From an uncultured Blautia sp. (GTDB taxonomy: Bacteria > Bacillota > Clostridia > Lachnospirales > Lachnospiraceae), in NCBI GenBank assembly GCA_900542045.1, contig UQMI01000025.1, positions 1 through 47,946 on the forward strand: a stretch of 47,946 bases of DNA, in the 5' to 3' direction. Positions 3,221 through 9,899 of this stretch are shown piece after piece. Under the pieces are notes generated by a model. It was not told the origin of the DNA. It saw only the letters and a program-made list of their open reading frames with translations, and made no database searches. Numbering within the stretch: position 1 is the first letter of the stretch; each line of letters starts with the position of its first letter. Made by a program: the position numbers and the translations under genes.

Positions 3221-3793
3221 ATGAAGTTTAAAGACTTTGCACATTTGCTGTATCCCAGCATCGGAGCCGGGAGCAGTACTCACGCCTTTACCCGTTCCTT
3301 ATTTGAAGCAATCGTCACTGAAGACGGCTTGGATATTCTCAACGGGTACAATAATGAATCCTTTAAGGCGTATTACAACGGAAATACAAAGATCTCCGGC
3401 CTGGCAAGAAAAATCAGCCCCTATGTAGAACCATTTGGATTTTCCGAATACATCGGAAGTTTTCAGGATTGCGCTATTCAAGGGCTGTGCGAGGTGTTCC
3501 AGAAATATATCCCAGACATCAATTTACACAATGCTGCGGATAAGCTGGCGGACCTGTTCGCTTCCATCATCAGAGAGGCGGCTGCTGCCACAAGAAAATC
3601 GCCGGGGAAATCGGCGCAAACAGACAGCGATGCAGAATCTATAGAGGCGGAGGTCGTGGATGACGAAATGCCATCAGGTGCCGCCGGAGAAGACAAAAAA
3701 ATAACCGTTATTCAGCAGCAGACAAATGTTATCCAAAACGGGGATCACAATGTCAATCTGACGAATAACGGTACAATCAATTTTCACTTTTGA
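3221..3793 (+). CDS. Unknown protein with C-terminal amyloid-like motif, first gene of defence operon
   Basis: A 190-residue protein of unrecognised family. The ATG at 3221 (MKFKDF) is preferred over an upstream TTG because the purine-rich AAAGGATGAGGGT precedes it. Residues 1 to about 125 look like a compact, mostly helical domain (conserved-looking FKAYYNGNTKISGLARKI, then AADKLADLFASII). An Ala/Glu/Asp-rich linker follows (about 126-160). The last 22 residues (169-190) are polar and strand-forming: V170-x-Q172-x-G174-x-x-N177-V-x-x-T181-N182-x-G184-x-I-N187. The same pattern occurs at residues 18-37 of the next gene product. A C-terminal motif paired with an N-terminal motif in the neighbour is how bacterial amyloid signalling sequences connect receptors and effectors. 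The function is unknown; the stop is 12 bases from the next start. Confidence 0.7.
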   Translation: MKFKDFAHLLYPSIGAGSSTHAFTRSLFEAIVTEDGLDILNGYNNESFKAYYNGNTKISGLARKISPYVEPFGFSEYIGSFQDCAIQGLCEVFQKYIPDINLHNAADKLADLFASIIREAAAATRKSPGKSAQTDSDAESIEAEVVDDEMPSGAAGEDKKITVIQQQTNVIQNGDHNVNLTNNGTINFHF

Positions 3794-3805
3794 TGGAGGC
3801 GGCTT

Positions 3806-4453
3806 ATGAATAACGAACTAATTCCGAAAACATCAATGCCTCCTGCGGCACAAAAAGTTGAGCAGACCGGCTCTACGAACGTCCATGTCACAAACCAGGG
3901 CGGCGGCGTGGTTAATATCAACTACAATTACCAACAGCCCGGCGGAAGTAACAGTGCCGAGCAGCTCATGGCAATACAGTCCTTCAGCAAGGAGTACTAT
4001 CAGCTTCTTGTTACATGCGAAGAGGATGTATTTATCAATAATATTGTGACTGTAACTGCCAGCCGCGCTCTGAGCCAGCATCTTGTTCCGCCGGAAATTC
4101 TGGAGCGTTGTTCATCCCTGTCCGATGCAGGAGTTGCGGAATTAAAAACATTCCCAGCCCTTATCTGTCGGGAAAATACTGAACTTGGGGGTAAAACCGA
4201 TCCAAACCAGTGGGCGGTCTATGGCTACATTAGAAGGGTCAAAAAAGAAGGAAAGAACATTAAAGTTGCTTTCCAGCCCATATCCGCCATTAACCAGCAG
4301 CTACTGTGCGCAAAAAAGAACGCCATCTATTTTGATCTTAATATGGACTGCGCTATCACGGATTTGAACTTCAGTGCATGGTCCGTACATAAGGTCAATC
4401 TTTTTGAGGCATTTGACGAGGCTGGGCTTACCGCCCTCCCAAGACCGAGCTAA
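3806..4453 (+). CDS. Unknown protein with N-terminal amyloid-like motif, second gene of defence operon
   Basis: A 215-residue protein without a family I can name. GGAGG lies six bases before the ATG. Residues 1-17 are a Pro/Lys leader. Residues 18-42 form a Gln/Asn/Gly/Val-rich strand-prone segment, V18-x-Q20-x-G22-x-x-N25-V-x-x-T29-N30-x-G32, followed by VVNINYNY, which matches the C-terminal tail of the preceding protein at nine aligned positions. A globular domain of about 160 residues follows with mixed alpha/beta character, including 'TVTASRALSQHLVPPEIL' and a C-terminal beta-rich part. No signal peptide or membrane segment is evident. It sits 12 bases after the first gene and 14 before the ATPase gene, so the three are almost surely co-transcribed and probably work together. 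Confidence 0.7.
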   Translation: MNNELIPKTSMPPAAQKVEQTGSTNVHVTNQGGGVVNINYNYQQPGGSNSAEQLMAIQSFSKEYYQLLVTCEEDVFINNIVTVTASRALSQHLVPPEILERCSSLSDAGVAELKTFPALICRENTELGGKTDPNQWAVYGYIRRVKKEGKNIKVAFQPISAINQQLLCAKKNAIYFDLNMDCAITDLNFSAWSVHKVNLFEAFDEAGLTALPRPS

Positions 4454-4467
4454 CAGGGAGGAATATC

Positions 4468-6798
4468 ATGCCAGATAAATTACCCAGTGAAATTATACGG
4501 ATTACTCTCGATGACGCCACATATAAAGGCACCGGCGCTGCCATTGCCCCAACTTACATCAATTATTTCTTTGGCAACAATGGAACGGGAAAAACAACCA
4601 TAGCAAAAGCAATAAAAACCGGCTCTGGGGTAATCTATGCCCCTGGCAAAGCTGCTGCGGATTATCTCCCCCTTGTATACGACCAGGATTTTATTGATGC
4701 CAATATGAGGAACTACCACAATCTTCCTGGCGTTTTTACCATGAATGAGGCAAATGTAAAAATACAGGAACAGATTGACAGGAAGGCCGCTGAACAGAAA
4801 AAGGCACAAAAAATCTCTTCGGATGCTTTCGCTGAAAAGGATAAAAAAGCTAAAACGAAAGCTGCTTTGGAAAAACAGCTATATAAGGACTGTTGGGACA
4901 AAACAGAGGAACTGCGCACTGTATTCGAAGCGACTCAGGAGGGCAAGAAAGGGTCAAAACAGAAATTTGCCGAAGAGGTAAAACGCCACTCTCCCATACA
5001 GCATGATGTTGAAGAATTGAAGCGGATGTATGACTCTGTCTATTCTTCTACGGCAAAGCGGTATGGCAGATTTAGCGTAGTCAGTGATGTTTCTGCCCTT
5101 GACCGCATCTCTGGCTGTGACATTCTTTCCCTTGCGATTGTGAATACCTCAAACACGCCATTTGCAGACTTTCTGAAAGAAGTCGGGTCAACTGAATGGG
5201 TGCGCCAAGGCCATGCAGATTACCATGAAAAGGCAGGTGGAAAATGCCCGTATTGTTCCCGAGACCTCCCTCAGAATTTTGAAGAAATGCTGGCCGCAAG
5301 TTTTGATACACAGTATCAAACAAACCTTCAGAAGCTGGACGCTTTCCTGGCTGCTTATCGGGATATGGCAAATGCCCTGTTCGTCCCGTTGAGTCGGCTG
5401 CCGGATGAGGTTTACCCTGTAATCGACACAAAGCCTTATCACGACAAGCTCACTGCAGTAAAGGCAGTAATAGCCGAAAATATTGAAAAAATCAAAAGCA
5501 AGGTGGTGGAACCGTCTAAAATCATCGCCTTGGACGAGGTTGAACCGCTTCTCCAGGAGCTTTCGGACATCATCAGCAGCTTTAACCGCCTGATAGACGC
5601 CAATAATGATATTGTGTCCGCCGGGCCGAAAAAGAAAGCCGAGTGCAAAAAAGCCGTTTTTGAGCAAATCGCCTATACTTTAAAAGATGTCCTGGAAGCC
5701 TATGCGCGAAGCGAATCAGCCCTTGATGCAGAAATACAGGCGCAGCAGGATATCATAAATACACAGAAAGGGGTACTTGACCAGCTAAAAGAGGATCTGC
5801 GTATTTTAAATAGCCAGACCGTGGAAACTGAAACTGCGATGAAAAGCATAAACACCATGCTCCGCGACTCTGGATTCCAGGGATTTGAACTGCGGCCCCG
5901 GCATGAAGAAATCATCCGCCCCGATGGTTCTGTAGAGTGCGTTGTCCCAACCCCAGCCATCAATTACGAGGTCGTGCGCACGGATACAGGCAAGATTGCG
6001 GAGAACCTCAGCGAGGGAGAAAAGAATTTCATCGCGTTTCTATATTTCCAACAGCTTGTATTTGGAAGGGAAAGCGCAGACGGCGATACACGGGAGAAAA
6101 TTGTTGTCATCGATGACCCCGTTTCGAGCATGGACAGCAGTGCGCTCTTTATTGTGAGTGCACAGATCAGGAAAATGATCGAAGTGTGCCGGAACAATGC
6201 AGATAACAGAAATCCTGTAGTTTCCGGGAACTTTATCAAGCAAATTTTTATTTTGACTCATAACGCTTATTTCCACAGGGAAGTCACCTATGCTTACGCC
6301 AACCGCTATGACTTTGTTTCCTTTTATCTGATTCGTAAAACGGACAACAAGTCCTCTATACGGCTGTGTGACTGTCCAAACCCCGACTGCCCTTCAGAGC
6401 GAATGAATGTAAATCCGGTCAAAAATTCTTATGCAGCTCTGTGGGATGAATATAAGGATGCTTCGTCCGGTATTCCCCTTATGAGCATTATCCGGAGAAT
6501 CCTGGAATATTACTTTCTGCAGCTTTGCGGGTATGAGGGCAGTGACTTGCGAAAGAGGATACTCGAAGAGAATAAGGACGCCTTTACCCACGATGATTTT
6601 GGCAATGAGGATTTCTCTAAATTTGAACTGGCGTCCGCCATGCTTTCGTACATTGCCGCCAATTCGTCCGGCATAAATGATGGTATGCATTATGTGGACG
6701 ACTGCATAGACGTCCAGCAGTGCAGAGATACTTTCCAGATGATTTTCCATCACATGGGGCAAGACCAACATTATGAAATGATGATGGGTATGAAATAA
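4468..6798 (+). CDS. RloC/PrrC-like AAA_13 ATPase with CxxC hook and candidate ribonuclease end
   Basis: A 776-residue SMC/Rad50-like ABC ATPase of the AAA_13 type, the family that includes the tRNA anticodon nucleases PrrC and RloC. Walker A is G36-N-N-G-T-G-K42-T43, the ABC signature is L514-S-E-G-E-K519, and Walker B is VVI548-D549-D550-P. Between them lie coiled-coil-rich segments (about 95-170 and 400-450) and a C260-P-Y-C263 motif like the RloC/Rad50 zinc hook. C634, C636 and C641 form a second Cys cluster. The C-terminus has R676-x3-E680 and H741 in an NDGMH context, which resembles the Arg-Glu-His triad reported for PrrC, although E-to-H spacing is longer. ATPase function is clear; anticodon nuclease activity is inferred. 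GGGAGG precedes the ATG, and the XRE gene starts 15 bases after the stop. Confidence 0.85.
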   Translation: MPDKLPSEIIRITLDDATYKGTGAAIAPTYINYFFGNNGTGKTTIAKAIKTGSGVIYAPGKAAADYLPLVYDQDFIDANMRNYHNLPGVFTMNEANVKIQEQIDRKAAEQKKAQKISSDAFAEKDKKAKTKAALEKQLYKDCWDKTEELRTVFEATQEGKKGSKQKFAEEVKRHSPIQHDVEELKRMYDSVYSSTAKRYGRFSVVSDVSALDRISGCDILSLAIVNTSNTPFADFLKEVGSTEWVRQGHADYHEKAGGKCPYCSRDLPQNFEEMLAASFDTQYQTNLQKLDAFLAAYRDMANALFVPLSRLPDEVYPVIDTKPYHDKLTAVKAVIAENIEKIKSKVVEPSKIIALDEVEPLLQELSDIISSFNRLIDANNDIVSAGPKKKAECKKAVFEQIAYTLKDVLEAYARSESALDAEIQAQQDIINTQKGVLDQLKEDLRILNSQTVETETAMKSINTMLRDSGFQGFELRPRHEEIIRPDGSVECVVPTPAINYEVVRTDTGKIAENLSEGEKNFIAFLYFQQLVFGRESADGDTREKIVVIDDPVSSMDSSALFIVSAQIRKMIEVCRNNADNRNPVVSGNFIKQIFILTHNAYFHREVTYAYANRYDFVSFYLIRKTDNKSSIRLCDCPNPDCPSERMNVNPVKNSYAALWDEYKDASSGIPLMSIIRRILEYYFLQLCGYEGSDLRKRILEENKDAFTHDDFGNEDFSKFELASAMLSYIAANSSGINDGMHYVDDCIDVQQCRDTFQMIFHHMGQDQHYEMMMGMK

Positions 6799-6813
6799 TG
6801 AGGAGGCAAACAA

Positions 6814-7029
6814 GTGCATATCAGTTATAACAAGCTATGGAAACTTCTTATTGACAAGAACATGACTAAGATGGAGCTAAAAGATGCCGCTGGTATCAGC
6901 GCCGCATCTATTGCGAAACTTGGCAAAGGCGGAAACATTACTACAGACGTTCTTTTGAAAATATGTGAAACACTGGGCTGTCACATAGAGGACATCCTCG
7001 AAACAATTGACGATCAGGAGGAAAAATAA
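6814..7029 (+). CDS. Small XRE-family HTH regulator
   Basis: A 71-residue Cro/CI-type DNA-binding protein consisting of little beyond the HTH: helices around LWKLLIDKNM, TKMELKDAAGIS, and the recognition helix ASIAKLGKGG, then VLLKICETLGCHIEDIL. It starts at GTG (6814) with GAGGAGG seven bases upstream. Its stop is one base before the endonuclease ATG, so translation is probably coupled. Small XRE proteins next to type II restriction genes often act as controller (C) proteins delaying endonuclease expression; by position it could also regulate the upstream ATPase genes. Which promoter it binds is not shown by the sequence. Confidence 0.85.
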   Translation: MHISYNKLWKLLIDKNMTKMELKDAAGISAASIAKLGKGGNITTDVLLKICETLGCHIEDILETIDDQEEK

Positions 7030-7030
7030 A

Positions 7031-8113
7031 ATGGCTATCTATTACGAACAGTCAAAGGTTCTTCTCAACAACTCATACGAAAAAGCTGCCCAGGAACTTC
7101 CGGCAGCCGTGACTCAATATATCACAGACAATAAGGATGCGCTGGATACAATCTTTTCCTCAAAAACACAGACCTACCGCGAGGTCCTGCTGGGCTGCGC
7201 AGTAGCAAGGTATCAGGACAGGAGCTGCAATATCCGGCACCCCTATGTCAAACAGGGCGAGGACGCTTTTAATGGGCGTACTCTGGATGAGAAGGCAGTC
7301 AATCCGTTCCTGTTTTCAAAGCAGATCCCTTGTTCCAAAGGTCCTTATCTGGCGACTTTCCGCAGGAATGTTACTTTCACTGAAGATACAAGGGATGGAT
7401 TGCGCGATAAGGAAGGCTTTGACGCTTTGCTGTCACTGATTTCCACCTTGGAGGCTGTGTCCGAAAGTGACGAGGTGGAAACGATCATCATTGCCTTATT
7501 GAAGTGCTTTATCGACCTCCGTGAGCAGTCGATTGTCCGACTTGTTCCAATCCGCCGACTCCGCATCGATCAGTACCGTATGTTCCTAAACAAACTACAG
7601 CATCGCCAGAGCGGCGGCCTTATTCCCATGCTCCTGACGGATGCCGTCTTCTCCACTATCAACGGTCAGATGAATGCGGGGTGGACCATAGAACGCCAGG
7701 AGATCAACGCCGCAGATGGTGCGACCGGCGCACCAGGTGATATTACGATTTACAAGGATGGAGCGATCTTTAAAGCCATTGAAGTTACTGAGCGGCCAAT
7801 AGACGGCTCCCGCGTTGATTCCACTTTCTCCACAAAAATCACACTGAACAACGCCGCTGAGTACTTATTCGTTTATACAAACGACCTTCCAAGGGAAAAT
7901 GCGCTGGAACGAGCAAAAGCGTATTTTGCGCAGGGGTATAATATCAATTTCGCTTCCATCACAGATTTAACCATCCACATCCTGCTTTCTGGAGATGAGG
8001 CATTTCGGACTGCATACAATGAAAGAATGTTTGAACTGTTCAATGCCCAGGATGTACAAGCAACGATTAAGGTAGCTTGGAACGATGCCTTGACCGAAGC
8101 AATGCAGGCATAA
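7031..8113 (+). CDS. SacI-like type II restriction endonuclease
   Basis: A 360-residue protein. I choose ATG 7031 because AGGAGG lies nine bases upstream, inside the end of the XRE gene. Its sequence suggests the SacI restriction endonuclease family, recalled from knowledge rather than searched. A possible PD-(D/E)XK core is P-G-D237-I-T-I-Y ... A-I-E251-V-T253-E, where the usual Lys is replaced by Thr. The preceding N-terminal half is helical with several Arg/Tyr-rich segments. The neighbouring convergent C5 methyltransferase and upstream small HTH protein make a restriction-modification set. SacI itself cuts GAGCTC, but specificity here cannot be read from sequence alone. Confidence 0.7.
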   Translation: MAIYYEQSKVLLNNSYEKAAQELPAAVTQYITDNKDALDTIFSSKTQTYREVLLGCAVARYQDRSCNIRHPYVKQGEDAFNGRTLDEKAVNPFLFSKQIPCSKGPYLATFRRNVTFTEDTRDGLRDKEGFDALLSLISTLEAVSESDEVETIIIALLKCFIDLREQSIVRLVPIRRLRIDQYRMFLNKLQHRQSGGLIPMLLTDAVFSTINGQMNAGWTIERQEINAADGATGAPGDITIYKDGAIFKAIEVTERPIDGSRVDSTFSTKITLNNAAEYLFVYTNDLPRENALERAKAYFAQGYNINFASITDLTIHILLSGDEAFRTAYNERMFELFNAQDVQATIKVAWNDALTEAMQA

Positions 8114-8117
8114 AAAA

Positions 8118-8153
8118 CGGGAATGTGTACCACATTAAGGTAACACATTCCCG
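8118..8153. terminator. Bidirectional terminator between endonuclease and methyltransferase genes
   Basis: CGGGAATGTGTACC pairs with GGTAACACATTCCCG with one bulged base and a seven-base loop. A6 precedes and CTTTTT follows, so it works for both convergent genes. The T-tract overlaps the methyltransferase stop codon. Confidence 0.85.
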
Positions 8154-8157
8154 CTTT

Positions 8158-9213
8158 TTACGCTTGAAGATATTCAGCAACAGCCGATGCAACGGCTTCC
8201 GCCATTTTACAAGGCACTGCATTGCCGATTTGTTTATAAATTGCCGCCGGCTTGCCACAGAAGATATAATCATCTGGGAAGGTCTGAATCTTAGCCGCTT
8301 CCCGTATCGTAATTCTTCTAAGGCGGCTGGGAGCTTCCTTGTATTCCGGGGTAATCGTTCCATCCATCAAACCTTTGTGGTAGTTCTCGATGAAATTATC
8401 ATCTGCCTCCCCATACAAGTAGTCTTCATCTATAAACGGCGTTTTATTCCCGCCCATAGAAGCCGGAAGGGTATTCGCATAGCCATCGATATCTATCGGG
8501 CGTCCCTGCCCATTAAAGTACATACCCGCATAAGGGGATTTACGCATAACCGGCCGTGCGCAAAAATTAATCTTTGCCACACAAGTCCGTGGATTCTCCT
8601 CACTGCCTGCTTTGCCAAGAGGTAACAAGATATCCCTGATGGGAGCAGCCTTCGTTTTATGATGTGTGATAAGCTGATGAAGACGCTTTTCATCAAACGA
8701 ATCCCCTCGGCTTCCAACAAAGAATACGCGCTCCCGCTTCTGCGGCACGCCATAATCTGTGGCATTTAAAACAAAATAATGGCACGAATATCCAAGGTCA
8801 GAAGCCTTCTTCAAATAGCGTTCTCGTACATCTTTCCATTTACTCAGTTCGCCCAGGGCTTTTACATTCTCCATCACAAAAGCTCTTGGCTTGACTCTTT
8901 CAACGACATCCAGGAAAGTAAAAATCAATTTACTTCTGTCATCATCAGGGTCCATTTTCCCCGCTACTGAAAAGCCCTGGCATGGAGGGCCTCCAAATAC
9001 AAGATCAACCCCCTCGTATTTGCCAAGAGAATCGATTACATTATTGATGTCATCGTTGACCATTATACAGTCTGGGTGATTGGCTCTGTAGGTTTCAGCA
9101 GCATCGGCAACCAGTTCATTGGCAAACACAACTTTTATCCCGGCATTCTCAAAACCGACATCCATGCCGCCCGCCCCAGAAAACAACGAAATGGCTCTTA
9201 ATGGCTCACTCAT
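8158..9213 (-). CDS. DNA (cytosine-5-)-methyltransferase of a type II restriction-modification system
   Basis: A 351-residue cytosine-C5 methyltransferase that would protect sites from the facing endonuclease. Start ATG 9213 (MSEPLRAIS) has AAGGAG eight bases upstream. Ordered C5-MTase motifs are visible: motif I (LFSGAGGMDVGF, 10-21), motif IV (GGPPCQGFS with catalytic C78), motif VI (E115-N-V), motif VIII (QKRERVFFVGSR), motif IX (RLRRITIREAAKIQTFP) and motif X (QIGNAVPCKMAEAVA). The target recognition domain lies between VIII and IX, about residues 190-290. It overlaps the upstream AbrB-like gene by eight bases (ATGAGTGA), so the two are translationally coupled. Confidence 0.95.
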   Translation of the reverse strand: MSEPLRAISLFSGAGGMDVGFENAGIKVVFANELVADAAETYRANHPDCIMVNDDINNVIDSLGKYEGVDLVFGGPPCQGFSVAGKMDPDDDRSKLIFTFLDVVERVKPRAFVMENVKALGELSKWKDVRERYLKKASDLGYSCHYFVLNATDYGVPQKRERVFFVGSRGDSFDEKRLHQLITHHKTKAAPIRDILLPLGKAGSEENPRTCVAKINFCARPVMRKSPYAGMYFNGQGRPIDIDGYANTLPASMGGNKTPFIDEDYLYGEADDNFIENYHKGLMDGTITPEYKEAPSRLRRITIREAAKIQTFPDDYIFCGKPAAIYKQIGNAVPCKMAEAVASAVAEYLQA

Positions 9214-9400
9214 CGGCTTTTTCTCCTTCTTTATCATGATGAATACGGAAAATCAATTCGTTTTCCTGCGCATTCAAATAAATATCAAAAGTGGTCTTTC
9301 CCTTTTCAACTCCCATATTAGAAAGGATTGCTTTCGGCATTCTTACTCGCATATCCTGCTGCAACACATAGGTATCAAGATAAATGCATGAATCTGTCAC
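9206..9400 (-). CDS. AbrB/SpoVT-like small protein upstream of the methyltransferase
   Basis: A 64-residue protein starting at GTG (9400) with AAGGAGG nine bases upstream. The stretch VRMPKAILSNMGVEKGKTTFDIYL resembles swapped-hairpin AbrB/MazE DNA-binding folds (a short strand, 'MPKAI', a turn, then strands), followed by a polar acidic tail. It overlaps the methyltransferase start by eight bases. The fold suggests a transcription regulator of the restriction-modification locus or an antitoxin-like protein; no toxin partner is adjacent. The TAACGATAG boxes near 9498-9545 are a plausible binding site, but this is only proximity. Confidence 0.6.
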   Translation of the reverse strand: MTDSCIYLDTYVLQQDMRVRMPKAILSNMGVEKGKTTFDIYLNAQENELIFRIHHDKEGEKADE

Positions 9401-9433
9401 GGCGTCTTTCCTCCTTGCCCTTAATTCAGTCTA

Positions 9434-9462
9434 ATTATAAACTGTTTTCAGTCCAGAGTCAA
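9434..9462 (-). promoter_or_regulatory. Sigma-A promoter for the AbrB-like and methyltransferase genes
   Basis: Read on the minus strand: TTGACT (9462-9457), a 17-base spacer, then TATAAT (9439-9434). This is close to consensus, so the methyltransferase side should be well expressed on entry, as protection requires. The GTG start at 9400 lies about 30 bases after the -10 box. Confidence 0.8.
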
Positions 9463-9497
9463 GCCTCTATACCACAACGAGAACAGTTTCTACATTT

Positions 9498-9545
9498 TAA
9501 CGATAGCCCTACTCTGTAACGATAGCTTTTCTATCGTTACAGAGT
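9498..9545. repeat. Three TAACGATAG boxes, two forming a perfect 15-bp inverted repeat
   Basis: TAACGATAG occurs at 9498-9506 and 9517-9525, and its inverse CTATCGTTA at 9531-9539. The last two lie in a perfect inverted repeat with arms ACTCTGTAACGATAG (9511-9525) and its complement (9531-9545) around CTTTT. No T-tract follows on either strand, so an operator or recombination site is more likely than a terminator. It lies about 50 bases upstream of the methyltransferase -35 box. Confidence 0.7.
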
Positions 9546-9899
9546 ATCATTGAAAAGAGCGAATCCCCCTGGCAAGACCGCTGTTCTGCCCCCGCCGCCA
9601 CAGTGCCGAAAATAGAAAAACCGCCCAGAAACGGCGGATTTGCGGCATTTTTGAGAGTATGGAATTGTATCAATCTCGGCGTGGTTTTGTCCATTAAACT
9701 TATCAACTCCACATACCATTTATCCAACCTGTCAACTCAACACCCCCAATATCAAAATCAACCACTCAACTCTCCGCCATTTTTCACAGTAGACCAGTTT
9801 CCACTTACCTATAAAATGAAAAAATCCGGGAATCGAAACCTGTCCTCGGACAAGCCCCACCTCCCGGAAATGCCTTGTTTTCTACACTTTTTCGTTATT
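9546..9899. other. Gene-free end of the element next to rlmD
   Basis: About 350 bases without a convincing gene; open frames here have low-complexity translations. It contains one hairpin terminator on the minus strand (listed separately) and AT-rich sequence up to the rlmD stop codon. If the segment to the left is an inserted element, its attachment site is at the right edge of this stretch. Confidence 0.4.
9616..9637 (-). terminator. Minus-strand terminator shielding the element from rlmD transcription
   Basis: Read on the minus strand, CCGCC (9637-9633), a seven-base loop, and GGCGG (9625-9621) are followed by TTTTT (9620-9616). It lies 260 bases downstream of the rlmD stop codon and before the methyltransferase operon, so it would end rlmD transcripts entering the accessory region. 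Confidence 0.6.

Follow-up and report, generated by a model that had tools for sequence, protein, structure and literature searches.

Locus-matched terminal tags in a conserved three-gene module with a predicted Rad50-like ATPase, located upstream of restriction-modification genes

Why do two neighbouring bacterial proteins carry much the same short motif, one at its C-terminus and the other at its N-terminus, directly in front of a gene for an ATPase? The question is raised by a 47,946-nucleotide stretch of DNA from an uncultured Blautia sp. (contig UQMI01000025.1), hereafter the window, where three open reading frames (ORF1, ORF2 and ORF3) follow each other on the plus strand. A preliminary description had taken them for a candidate defence module whose two small proteins zip together by the shared motif. 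Comparison with related loci revealed that the three genes are a conserved operon, that the motifs, which we call tags, pair by type and occur on two unrelated classes of ORF1 N-terminal domain, that they were lost in two related fusions, and that restriction-modification (R-M) genes lie downstream. The reading we prefer, to which we give a probability of roughly 45%, is that the locus-matched tags, ORF2 as a predicted reader of modified bases and the predicted Rad50-like ATPase would switch on ORF1, the likely effector, when a phage evades the neighbouring R-M system. The features of the module in the window are as follows.

3221..3793, plus strand: ORF1 (190 amino acids), with a helical N-terminal domain of class I and a tag at the C-terminus; likely the effector or a partner in signalling
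3221..3586, plus strand: ORF1 residues 1-122, all-helical N-terminal domain (AlphaFold2; predicted local distance difference test, pLDDT, 92-98 per block of ten through residue 120)
3728..3790, plus strand: ORF1 C-terminal tag, residues 170-190, kept among homologues in several types and supported by the pair test
3806..4453, plus strand: ORF2 (215 amino acids), N-terminal tag and a body predicted to be PUA/EVE/YTH-like
3857..3931, plus strand: ORF2 N-terminal tag, residues 18-42 (pair test, BLASTP)
3956..4450, plus strand: ORF2 residues 51-215, with a fold predicted to be modified-base-reader-like
4468..6798, plus strand: ORF3 (776 amino acids), AAA_13 / PDC-S06 ATPase, Rad50-like, with a CPxC zinc hook
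4573..4599, plus strand: ORF3 Walker A motif, kept in alignments
5245..5256, plus strand: ORF3 zinc-hook CPxC, with C260, P261 and C263 in 33/33 ATPases
6007..6138, plus strand: ORF3 ABC signature and Walker B motif, conserved

Three genes in one conserved operon

The coordinates agree with the spacing described before: 12 bases separate ORF1 from ORF2 and 14 bases ORF2 from ORF3, all on the same strand. To place the locus among its relatives, we used the best 120 of 129 ORF1 homologues and the best 120 of 373 ORF2 homologues from protein searches, and gathered loci by running ORF2 profiles against genomes and viral contigs. ORF2 proved rare among the genomes covered: a match was present in 2/394, 3/392, 7/250 and 2/391 of them, with weak matches and the starting genomes counted. 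The plasmid collection gave 0 ORF2 matches, as did a viral scan that used one distant ORF2 alone. The PADLOC model PDLC04890 matched 59 of 196 genomes at E <=0.001; these matches were mostly weak and were not used. The module also occurs in two annotated phages from human feces (Candidatus Heliusvirales).

We counted 76 ORF2 loci (numbered with an L), excluding the window and dropping L071, L083, L093 and L094 as the same contigs, with no thinning by similarity. An ORF1 match was found in 72 of them and an ATPase match within the fetched stretch in 65, and all 62 loci holding the three genes have them in the order ORF1-ORF2-ATPase on one strand. The three genes are therefore one conserved operon, and the conserved module that the preliminary description proposed is borne out by the co-occurrence in profile searches. 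Some of the counted genes are broken, namely ORF1 of L012 and L018, scored as present though interrupted, and the ATPases of L014, L019 and L090. Loci in which the two small genes occur apart, which the preliminary description had named as evidence against itself, are mostly wanting: ORF2 lacked a detected ORF1 in only 4/76 loci, three of which (L006, L014 and L140) have an ORF2 start less than 620 bases from the contig end, the fourth (L104) being a weak partial match.

Five loci, two of them near-identical, carry two ORF2 copies. The ATPase of L046 is found about 11 kb further on, beyond genes of what looks like a type III-like restriction operon (4255-9556), and L138 likewise has such genes between ORF2 and the ATPase; L060, L063 and L069 start like L046, their stretches ending before any ATPase. 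L047 (3416-11943) carries ORF1-ORF2 with no adjacent ATPase, beside a stretch that by eye resembles a CRISPR array and Cas-like genes.

Tag types pair locus by locus

In the window, V-x-Q-x-G-x-x-N-V-x-x-T-N-x-G is common to ORF1 residues 170-184 and ORF2 residues 18-32. The shared C-terminal/N-terminal motif reported earlier is real, with 8 identities over 15 ungapped positions and one further N past a 4-residue gap. The pair scored 42 by Smith-Waterman alignment, where 20,000 shuffles averaged 23.4 (p 0.0023), and BLASTP gave E 0.039. Taken alone, the likeness in the window is modest; the comparison across loci makes it decisive.

For this comparison, the first pair set started from 58 pair rows, with two rows each for L043 and L052. 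The body anchor was not found in L043, L052b, L061, L062 and L070, leaving 53 rows, from which the remaining second-partner row and ORF2 bodies at least 75% alike were removed to give 30 loci. A larger set including L043, L061, L062 and L070 had 56 rows and, after the same filter, 33 loci. Outside the pair sets were L068 (an extra gene between), L073 and L075 (fused), L045 (ORF1 cut short), L104, L006 and L014, together with near-duplicates such as L009, L012, L013, L015, L016, L018, L048, L049, L082, L085, L086, L091 and L092.

The own-pair mean of the 30 loci, whose ORF2 bodies are less than 75% identical, was 56.0 as opposed to 33.2 (standard deviation 1.9) on re-pairing (z 12.0), and 0/20,000 re-pairings reached the own-pair mean; the 33 loci gave 55.9 against 32.8 (z 12.7). 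In the 30-locus set, and with the same counts in the larger one, the own ORF1 was the best match for 17 ORF2s and the own ORF2 for 11 ORF1s, first ranks being missed in part because loci share tag types. Likewise, the window pair comes 8th of 30 when ORF2s are ranked for its ORF1 and 4th of 30 when ORF1s are ranked for its ORF2, as its tag type is common to several other loci. Exceptions to the own-pair match are L010 (17th), L019 (8th) and L064 (28th of 30). Since the ORF2 tree alone could produce such pairing, we corrected for ORF2-body similarity: a partial Mantel test of ORF1-tag against ORF2-tag similarity in the 30 loci gave r 0.60 (p 0.0002). Moreover, when ORF2 bodies were less than 40% identical, 8/9 ORF2s still chose their own ORF1.

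The tag is present in most full-length homologues in differing types, and the partners correspond. Type A, that of the window, pairs with type A, and the KTYNI type with KTYNI (L012, L013, L017 and L018); NQYGEKNIHI is found with NQYGEKNVHV in L044, NQYADKIYNIEHV with NQQAEKLYNINNV in L051, VPNYGTVNL with IPNYGTVNL in L067, and TQIGYINQQVN with MQVGYIQQQTN in L103. Separate profiles distinguished two classes of ORF1 N-terminal domain, class I in 17/76 loci and class II in 55/76, and type A occurs also on proteins whose N-terminal domain is unrelated. Class I ORF1s bear type A in the window and type C in L061 and L062, matching their ORF2s, and class II ORF1s bear type A (L002 and L003), B or C. 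To judge from these sequences, the tag type follows partnership, not the N-terminal domain of ORF1 itself.

The earlier claim of paired tags thus stands in so far as type co-varies from locus to locus; it does not extend to L073 (5747-7489) and L075 (5744-7444), two natural fusions in which class II ORF1 and ORF2 form one protein with no visible tag pair. As these two loci are close relatives, fusion with tag loss was probably one event. In L068, an extra gene (6540-6989) separates ORF1 and ORF2, whose tags still match by eye. L052 encodes a third protein with an N-terminal tag (7624-8250) and a domain that by eye is like the additional middle segment found in the long class I ORF1s (L005 and L007).

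The proteins and their neighbourhood

ORF1 residues 1-141 match the PADLOC LmuA model PDLC03857 at 2.9e-15, covering positions 1-150 of its 327 and not the whole length. ORF1 matched no Pfam family, and 3/3 class II ORF1s tested matched no PADLOC model. A weak PADLOC match to HamA (E 0.015) was set aside. The structure search barely probed the fold of ORF1, as ORF2 rows fill the match list of the single-chain ORF1-ORF2 fusion model. By analogy, ORF1 is likely the effector, because the effector side bears the C-terminal motif in pairs of NLRs (NOD-like receptors) and bacterial amyloid signalling sequences (BASS) (PMC8086366, in part), and because its N-terminal domain resembles that of LmuA, the likely effector domain of Lamassu (PMC10586767, in part).

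The body of ORF2 is predicted to be modified-base-reader-like with a PUA/EVE/YTH-like fold. The VIA rows are mostly modified-base readers, and the top Foldseek row on the fusion model is the McrB N-terminal domain (E 0.024); this search gave 0 rows at E <=0.001 and listed McrB and YTH but also many flavin reductases. ORF2 had no sequence-profile match to EVE (Pfam PF01878; HHalign probability 0.3%), and searches of PDB sequences with ORF2 gave nothing useful. Neither ORF1, ORF2 nor the scanned relatives matched a Pfam ABC three-component (ABC-3C) family, and the match to named ABC-3C middle components that the preliminary description had given as evidence against itself was thus not found in Pfam; the LmuA model does match the ORF1 N-terminal domain.

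ORF3 is covered over nearly its whole length by AAA_13 (PF13166, 4.4e-110), its best PADLOC match being PDC-S06 (2.4e-206) and LmuB reaching 3.9e-18. It has an RloC/PrrC-like ABC ATPase, a coiled coil and a zinc hook. A model built from 15 alignment rows, with a mean pLDDT of 67, matched the Rad50 complex in Foldseek at 9.3e-5 with a template-modelling (TM) score of 0.11; the Foldseek matches had TM scores around 0.1, and the Lamassu row 9hqu (E 0.023) came from the same low-confidence model. We predict ORF3 to be a Rad50-like ATPase. Its relative in L051 matched ABC-3C CTD8 at E 0.49.

The assignment of ORF3 to the RloC/PrrC type held for AAA_13, the zinc hook and the conserved R and E, and failed for a complete R-E-H triad. 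R676 and E680 are each kept in 31/33 ATPase C-termini and H768 in 33/33. The catalytic His of RloC follows the Glu by 41 residues (PMC2610378, in part), whereas among the 33 ATPases no His is conserved at this spacing, one at exactly +41 being present in 7/33. The ORF3 of the window has none there, its histidines before H768 standing at +28, +61, +81 and +82. The HEPN motif Rx4-6H was likewise not conserved, occurring anywhere in only 13/33 C-termini and at varying places. With the triad incomplete at the RloC spacing and Rx4-6H not conserved, ORF3 was rejected as a proven anticodon nuclease. The ATPases of L053, L065, L066, L078, L084, L089 and L138 have a His at +41 after a conserved acidic residue, and some ATPases with this His may be true anticodon nucleases.

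Downstream of the module, the window holds a regulator gene and an R-M system.

6814..7029, plus strand: HTH_26 Cro/C1-type regulator between the module and the R-M genes (Pfam 1.2e-18)
7031..8113, plus strand: SacI-like restriction endonuclease of the linked R-M system (PF09566, 9.3e-11)
8158..9237, minus strand: C5-cytosine DNA methyltransferase of the linked R-M system (PF00145, 1.1e-69)

The regulator is possibly an R-M controller; it also resembles VanU below the cut-off (83.5 of 150 bits). R-M genes of many different restriction systems are found downstream of the module. We scanned 111 of 118 chosen downstream proteins (at most three per locus, 46 loci) and the restriction enzyme of the window; L019 and L065 gave no proteins, and the seven chosen proteins outside the scan were three of L073, two of L017, one of L051 and one of L052. 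Among the 25 most frequent of 62 Pfam families, these 112 proteins included 15 C5 methylases, 11 ResIII, 8 N6_Mtase, 7 Eco57I and 4 N6_N4_Mtase, and the downstream proteins also comprised several named restriction enzymes. None of these five families was listed among 64 upstream proteins (63 of 82 chosen and that of the window), where DUF2800 (18), sigma-70 region 4 (6) and antirepressor (4) were found instead. Of the 56 loci with two or more downstream ORFs, 33 have a methylase on that side as judged by sequence motif; upstream, the count is 2/67. On the other side of the module, positions 114-2749 of the window hold a DNA polymerase A (PF00476) that looks phage-like and, on the opposite strand beside the module, a weak sigma-70 region 4-like protein; the left part of the window looks like prophage.

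Tag function, alternatives and known systems

How might the tags work? The fungal PP motif is described by the Pfam family Ses_B (PMC8086366, in part) and is homologous to RHIM and BASS3 (PMC12261475, in part). Ses_B was matched by 4/60 tag-region peptides of the 30 loci (best E 0.012), which include the L064 ORF2 piece with no recognisable tag; every other Pfam family was matched once, and composition-matched shuffles matched Ses_B in 0/60. Two of the matches, L098 and L101, scored 12.0 and 14.3 bits against a cut-off of 23.2, and 1/13 ORF2 relatives also matched (E 0.26). RHIM-like tetrads occur in 5 ORF1 and 4 ORF2 tags of the 30 loci (shuffled means 0.5 and 0.7, maxima 4 and 5), whereas most tags, including those of the window, lack one and have Q-x-G or other cores. 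A single-chain AlphaFold model of ORF1 and ORF2 showed no co-fold of the tags, residues 129-238 and 240-242 having a pLDDT below 50. This negative is weak, because the aligner puts ORF2 tags on the tag columns of ORF1 and leaves the ORF2 tag few rows, and the disorder is neutral, because RHIMs are disordered as monomers and become ordered on assembly (PMC12133306, in part). Weak signals in the tag sequences favour the view that the tags may form amyloid, and they likely bind each other by RHIM/BASS-like templating.

A possible but somewhat doubtful alternative is that the tags serve as ordinary docking peptides of a heterotypic kind, through beta-strand augmentation or a small beta-solenoid for instance, and hold a stable ORF1-ORF2-ATPase complex together without amyloid templating. 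Pairing by type and loss in fusions need only binding, the amyloid-family matches are weak, and the C-terminal domains of LmuA are thought to be docking stations in Lamassu (PMC10586767). However, AlphaFold predicted no ordered tag docking within one chain, with the limit on aligned rows given above, and the two partners, like those of RHIM, PP and BASS pairs, carry short tags that resemble each other and are often Q/G/N-rich. This likeness speaks against a heterotypic dock, because such a dock needs no alike sides. We consider it unlikely that the operon is a diverged Lamassu or ABC-3C system with ORF1 as LmuA, ORF2 as LmuC or middle component, and ORF3 as LmuB. The LmuA and LmuB matches, the order of effector, small protein and SMC-like ATPase, and the 9hqu row agree with it, whereas the far better PDC-S06 match of the ATPase, the class II ORF1s with no PADLOC match and the lack of an ABC-3C or LmuC model match for ORF2 disagree.

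The R-M linkage speaks for a third explanation, in which ORF3 would itself be the effector, a PrrC/RloC-like anticodon nuclease with ORF1 and ORF2 as latency and sensing partners, guarding the R-M system as PrrC guards EcoprrI. Members of the PrrC/RloC group frequently occur in R-M operons (PMC3710099, in part), and AAA_13 over nearly the full length with conserved R676, E680 and H768 fits such a nuclease; the missing His at the RloC spacing and the scattered Rx4-6H make it rather unlikely. It is very improbable that a phage hotspot merely carries the three genes as cargo without relation to each other, their tag likeness being a relic of an old duplication. The loci do adjoin phage genes and occur in phage records, but their order is kept in 62/62, tag similarity correlates after correction for ORF2 relatedness, and one tag type sits on two unrelated ORF1 N-terminal domains.

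In the preferred reading of a tag-coupled switch, ORF2 together with the ATPase would sense the state of DNA, modified bases being predicted to be read by ORF2; ORF2 tags would then cluster, and templating by the tags would bring in ORF1 and activate it, which would back up the linked R-M system. The steps from sensing to toxicity, the trigger and the role of ORF1 as effector are all putative. PrrC and PARIS are described as guardians of R-M systems, and type IV enzymes as directed at DNA modifications of phages (PMC12707154, in part). More tentatively, the module may represent a kind of immune signalling in bacteria that uses paired amyloid motifs but no NLR. The modified-base reader and the Rad50-like ATPase would guard R-M, and the tag pair of each locus, serving as a barcode against cross-talk, would template the effector once modified phage DNA has got past restriction.

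Should the tags act as their appearance suggests, templating of the amyloid kind would not be bound to NLRs in bacteria and could be a general connector in phage-borne defence modules, with many natural tag types on hand for specificity tests. A backup alarm, like PrrC and PARIS, would then be common to several R-M types (I, II and III-like), and the reader protein would sense the very modifications that phages use against restriction. In our searches of an open-licence library, we found no paper on an EVE domain with amyloid and phage, and one unrelated paper for AAA_13, PrrC and defense; the main text of an EVE survey (PMC7641849) contains no RloC, ABC ATPase, AAA_13, amyloid, Rad50 or SMC.

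Among known systems, BASS, which link Bell-domain effectors to NLRs, comprise many motif families, a similar short motif standing C-terminally in one protein and N-terminally in that of the next gene (PMC8086366). The module resembles them in its C-terminal and N-terminal motifs on neighbours pairing by type, but it has a Rad50-like ATPase and a predicted reader of bases as partners, and the Pfam hits of the three genes (E up to 1) contain no NACHT or NB-ARC and hence no NLR partner. With PP/RHIM (Ses_B) it shares the weak matches and a few tetrads, although the matches fall below the curated cut-off and most tags have no tetrad. Like Lamassu, ABC-3C and DdmABC, it has the order effector, small protein, SMC-like ATPase and an LmuA-like class I N-terminal domain; its ATPase, in contrast, is of PDC-S06 type, no LmuC or ABC-3C middle component is matched, and excerpts of PMC10586767 mention no tag pair for Lamassu. 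With PrrC/RloC it has in common an AAA_13 ATPase with a zinc hook, R-x3-E near the C-terminus and R-M linkage, and it differs in the His not conserved at the RloC position and in two extra tagged partners. ORF3 matches the PDC-S06 models best; in the excerpts of the literature available, PDC-S06 appears as a table entry, a candidate listed by its ATPase alone, whereas the module has two further tagged proteins.

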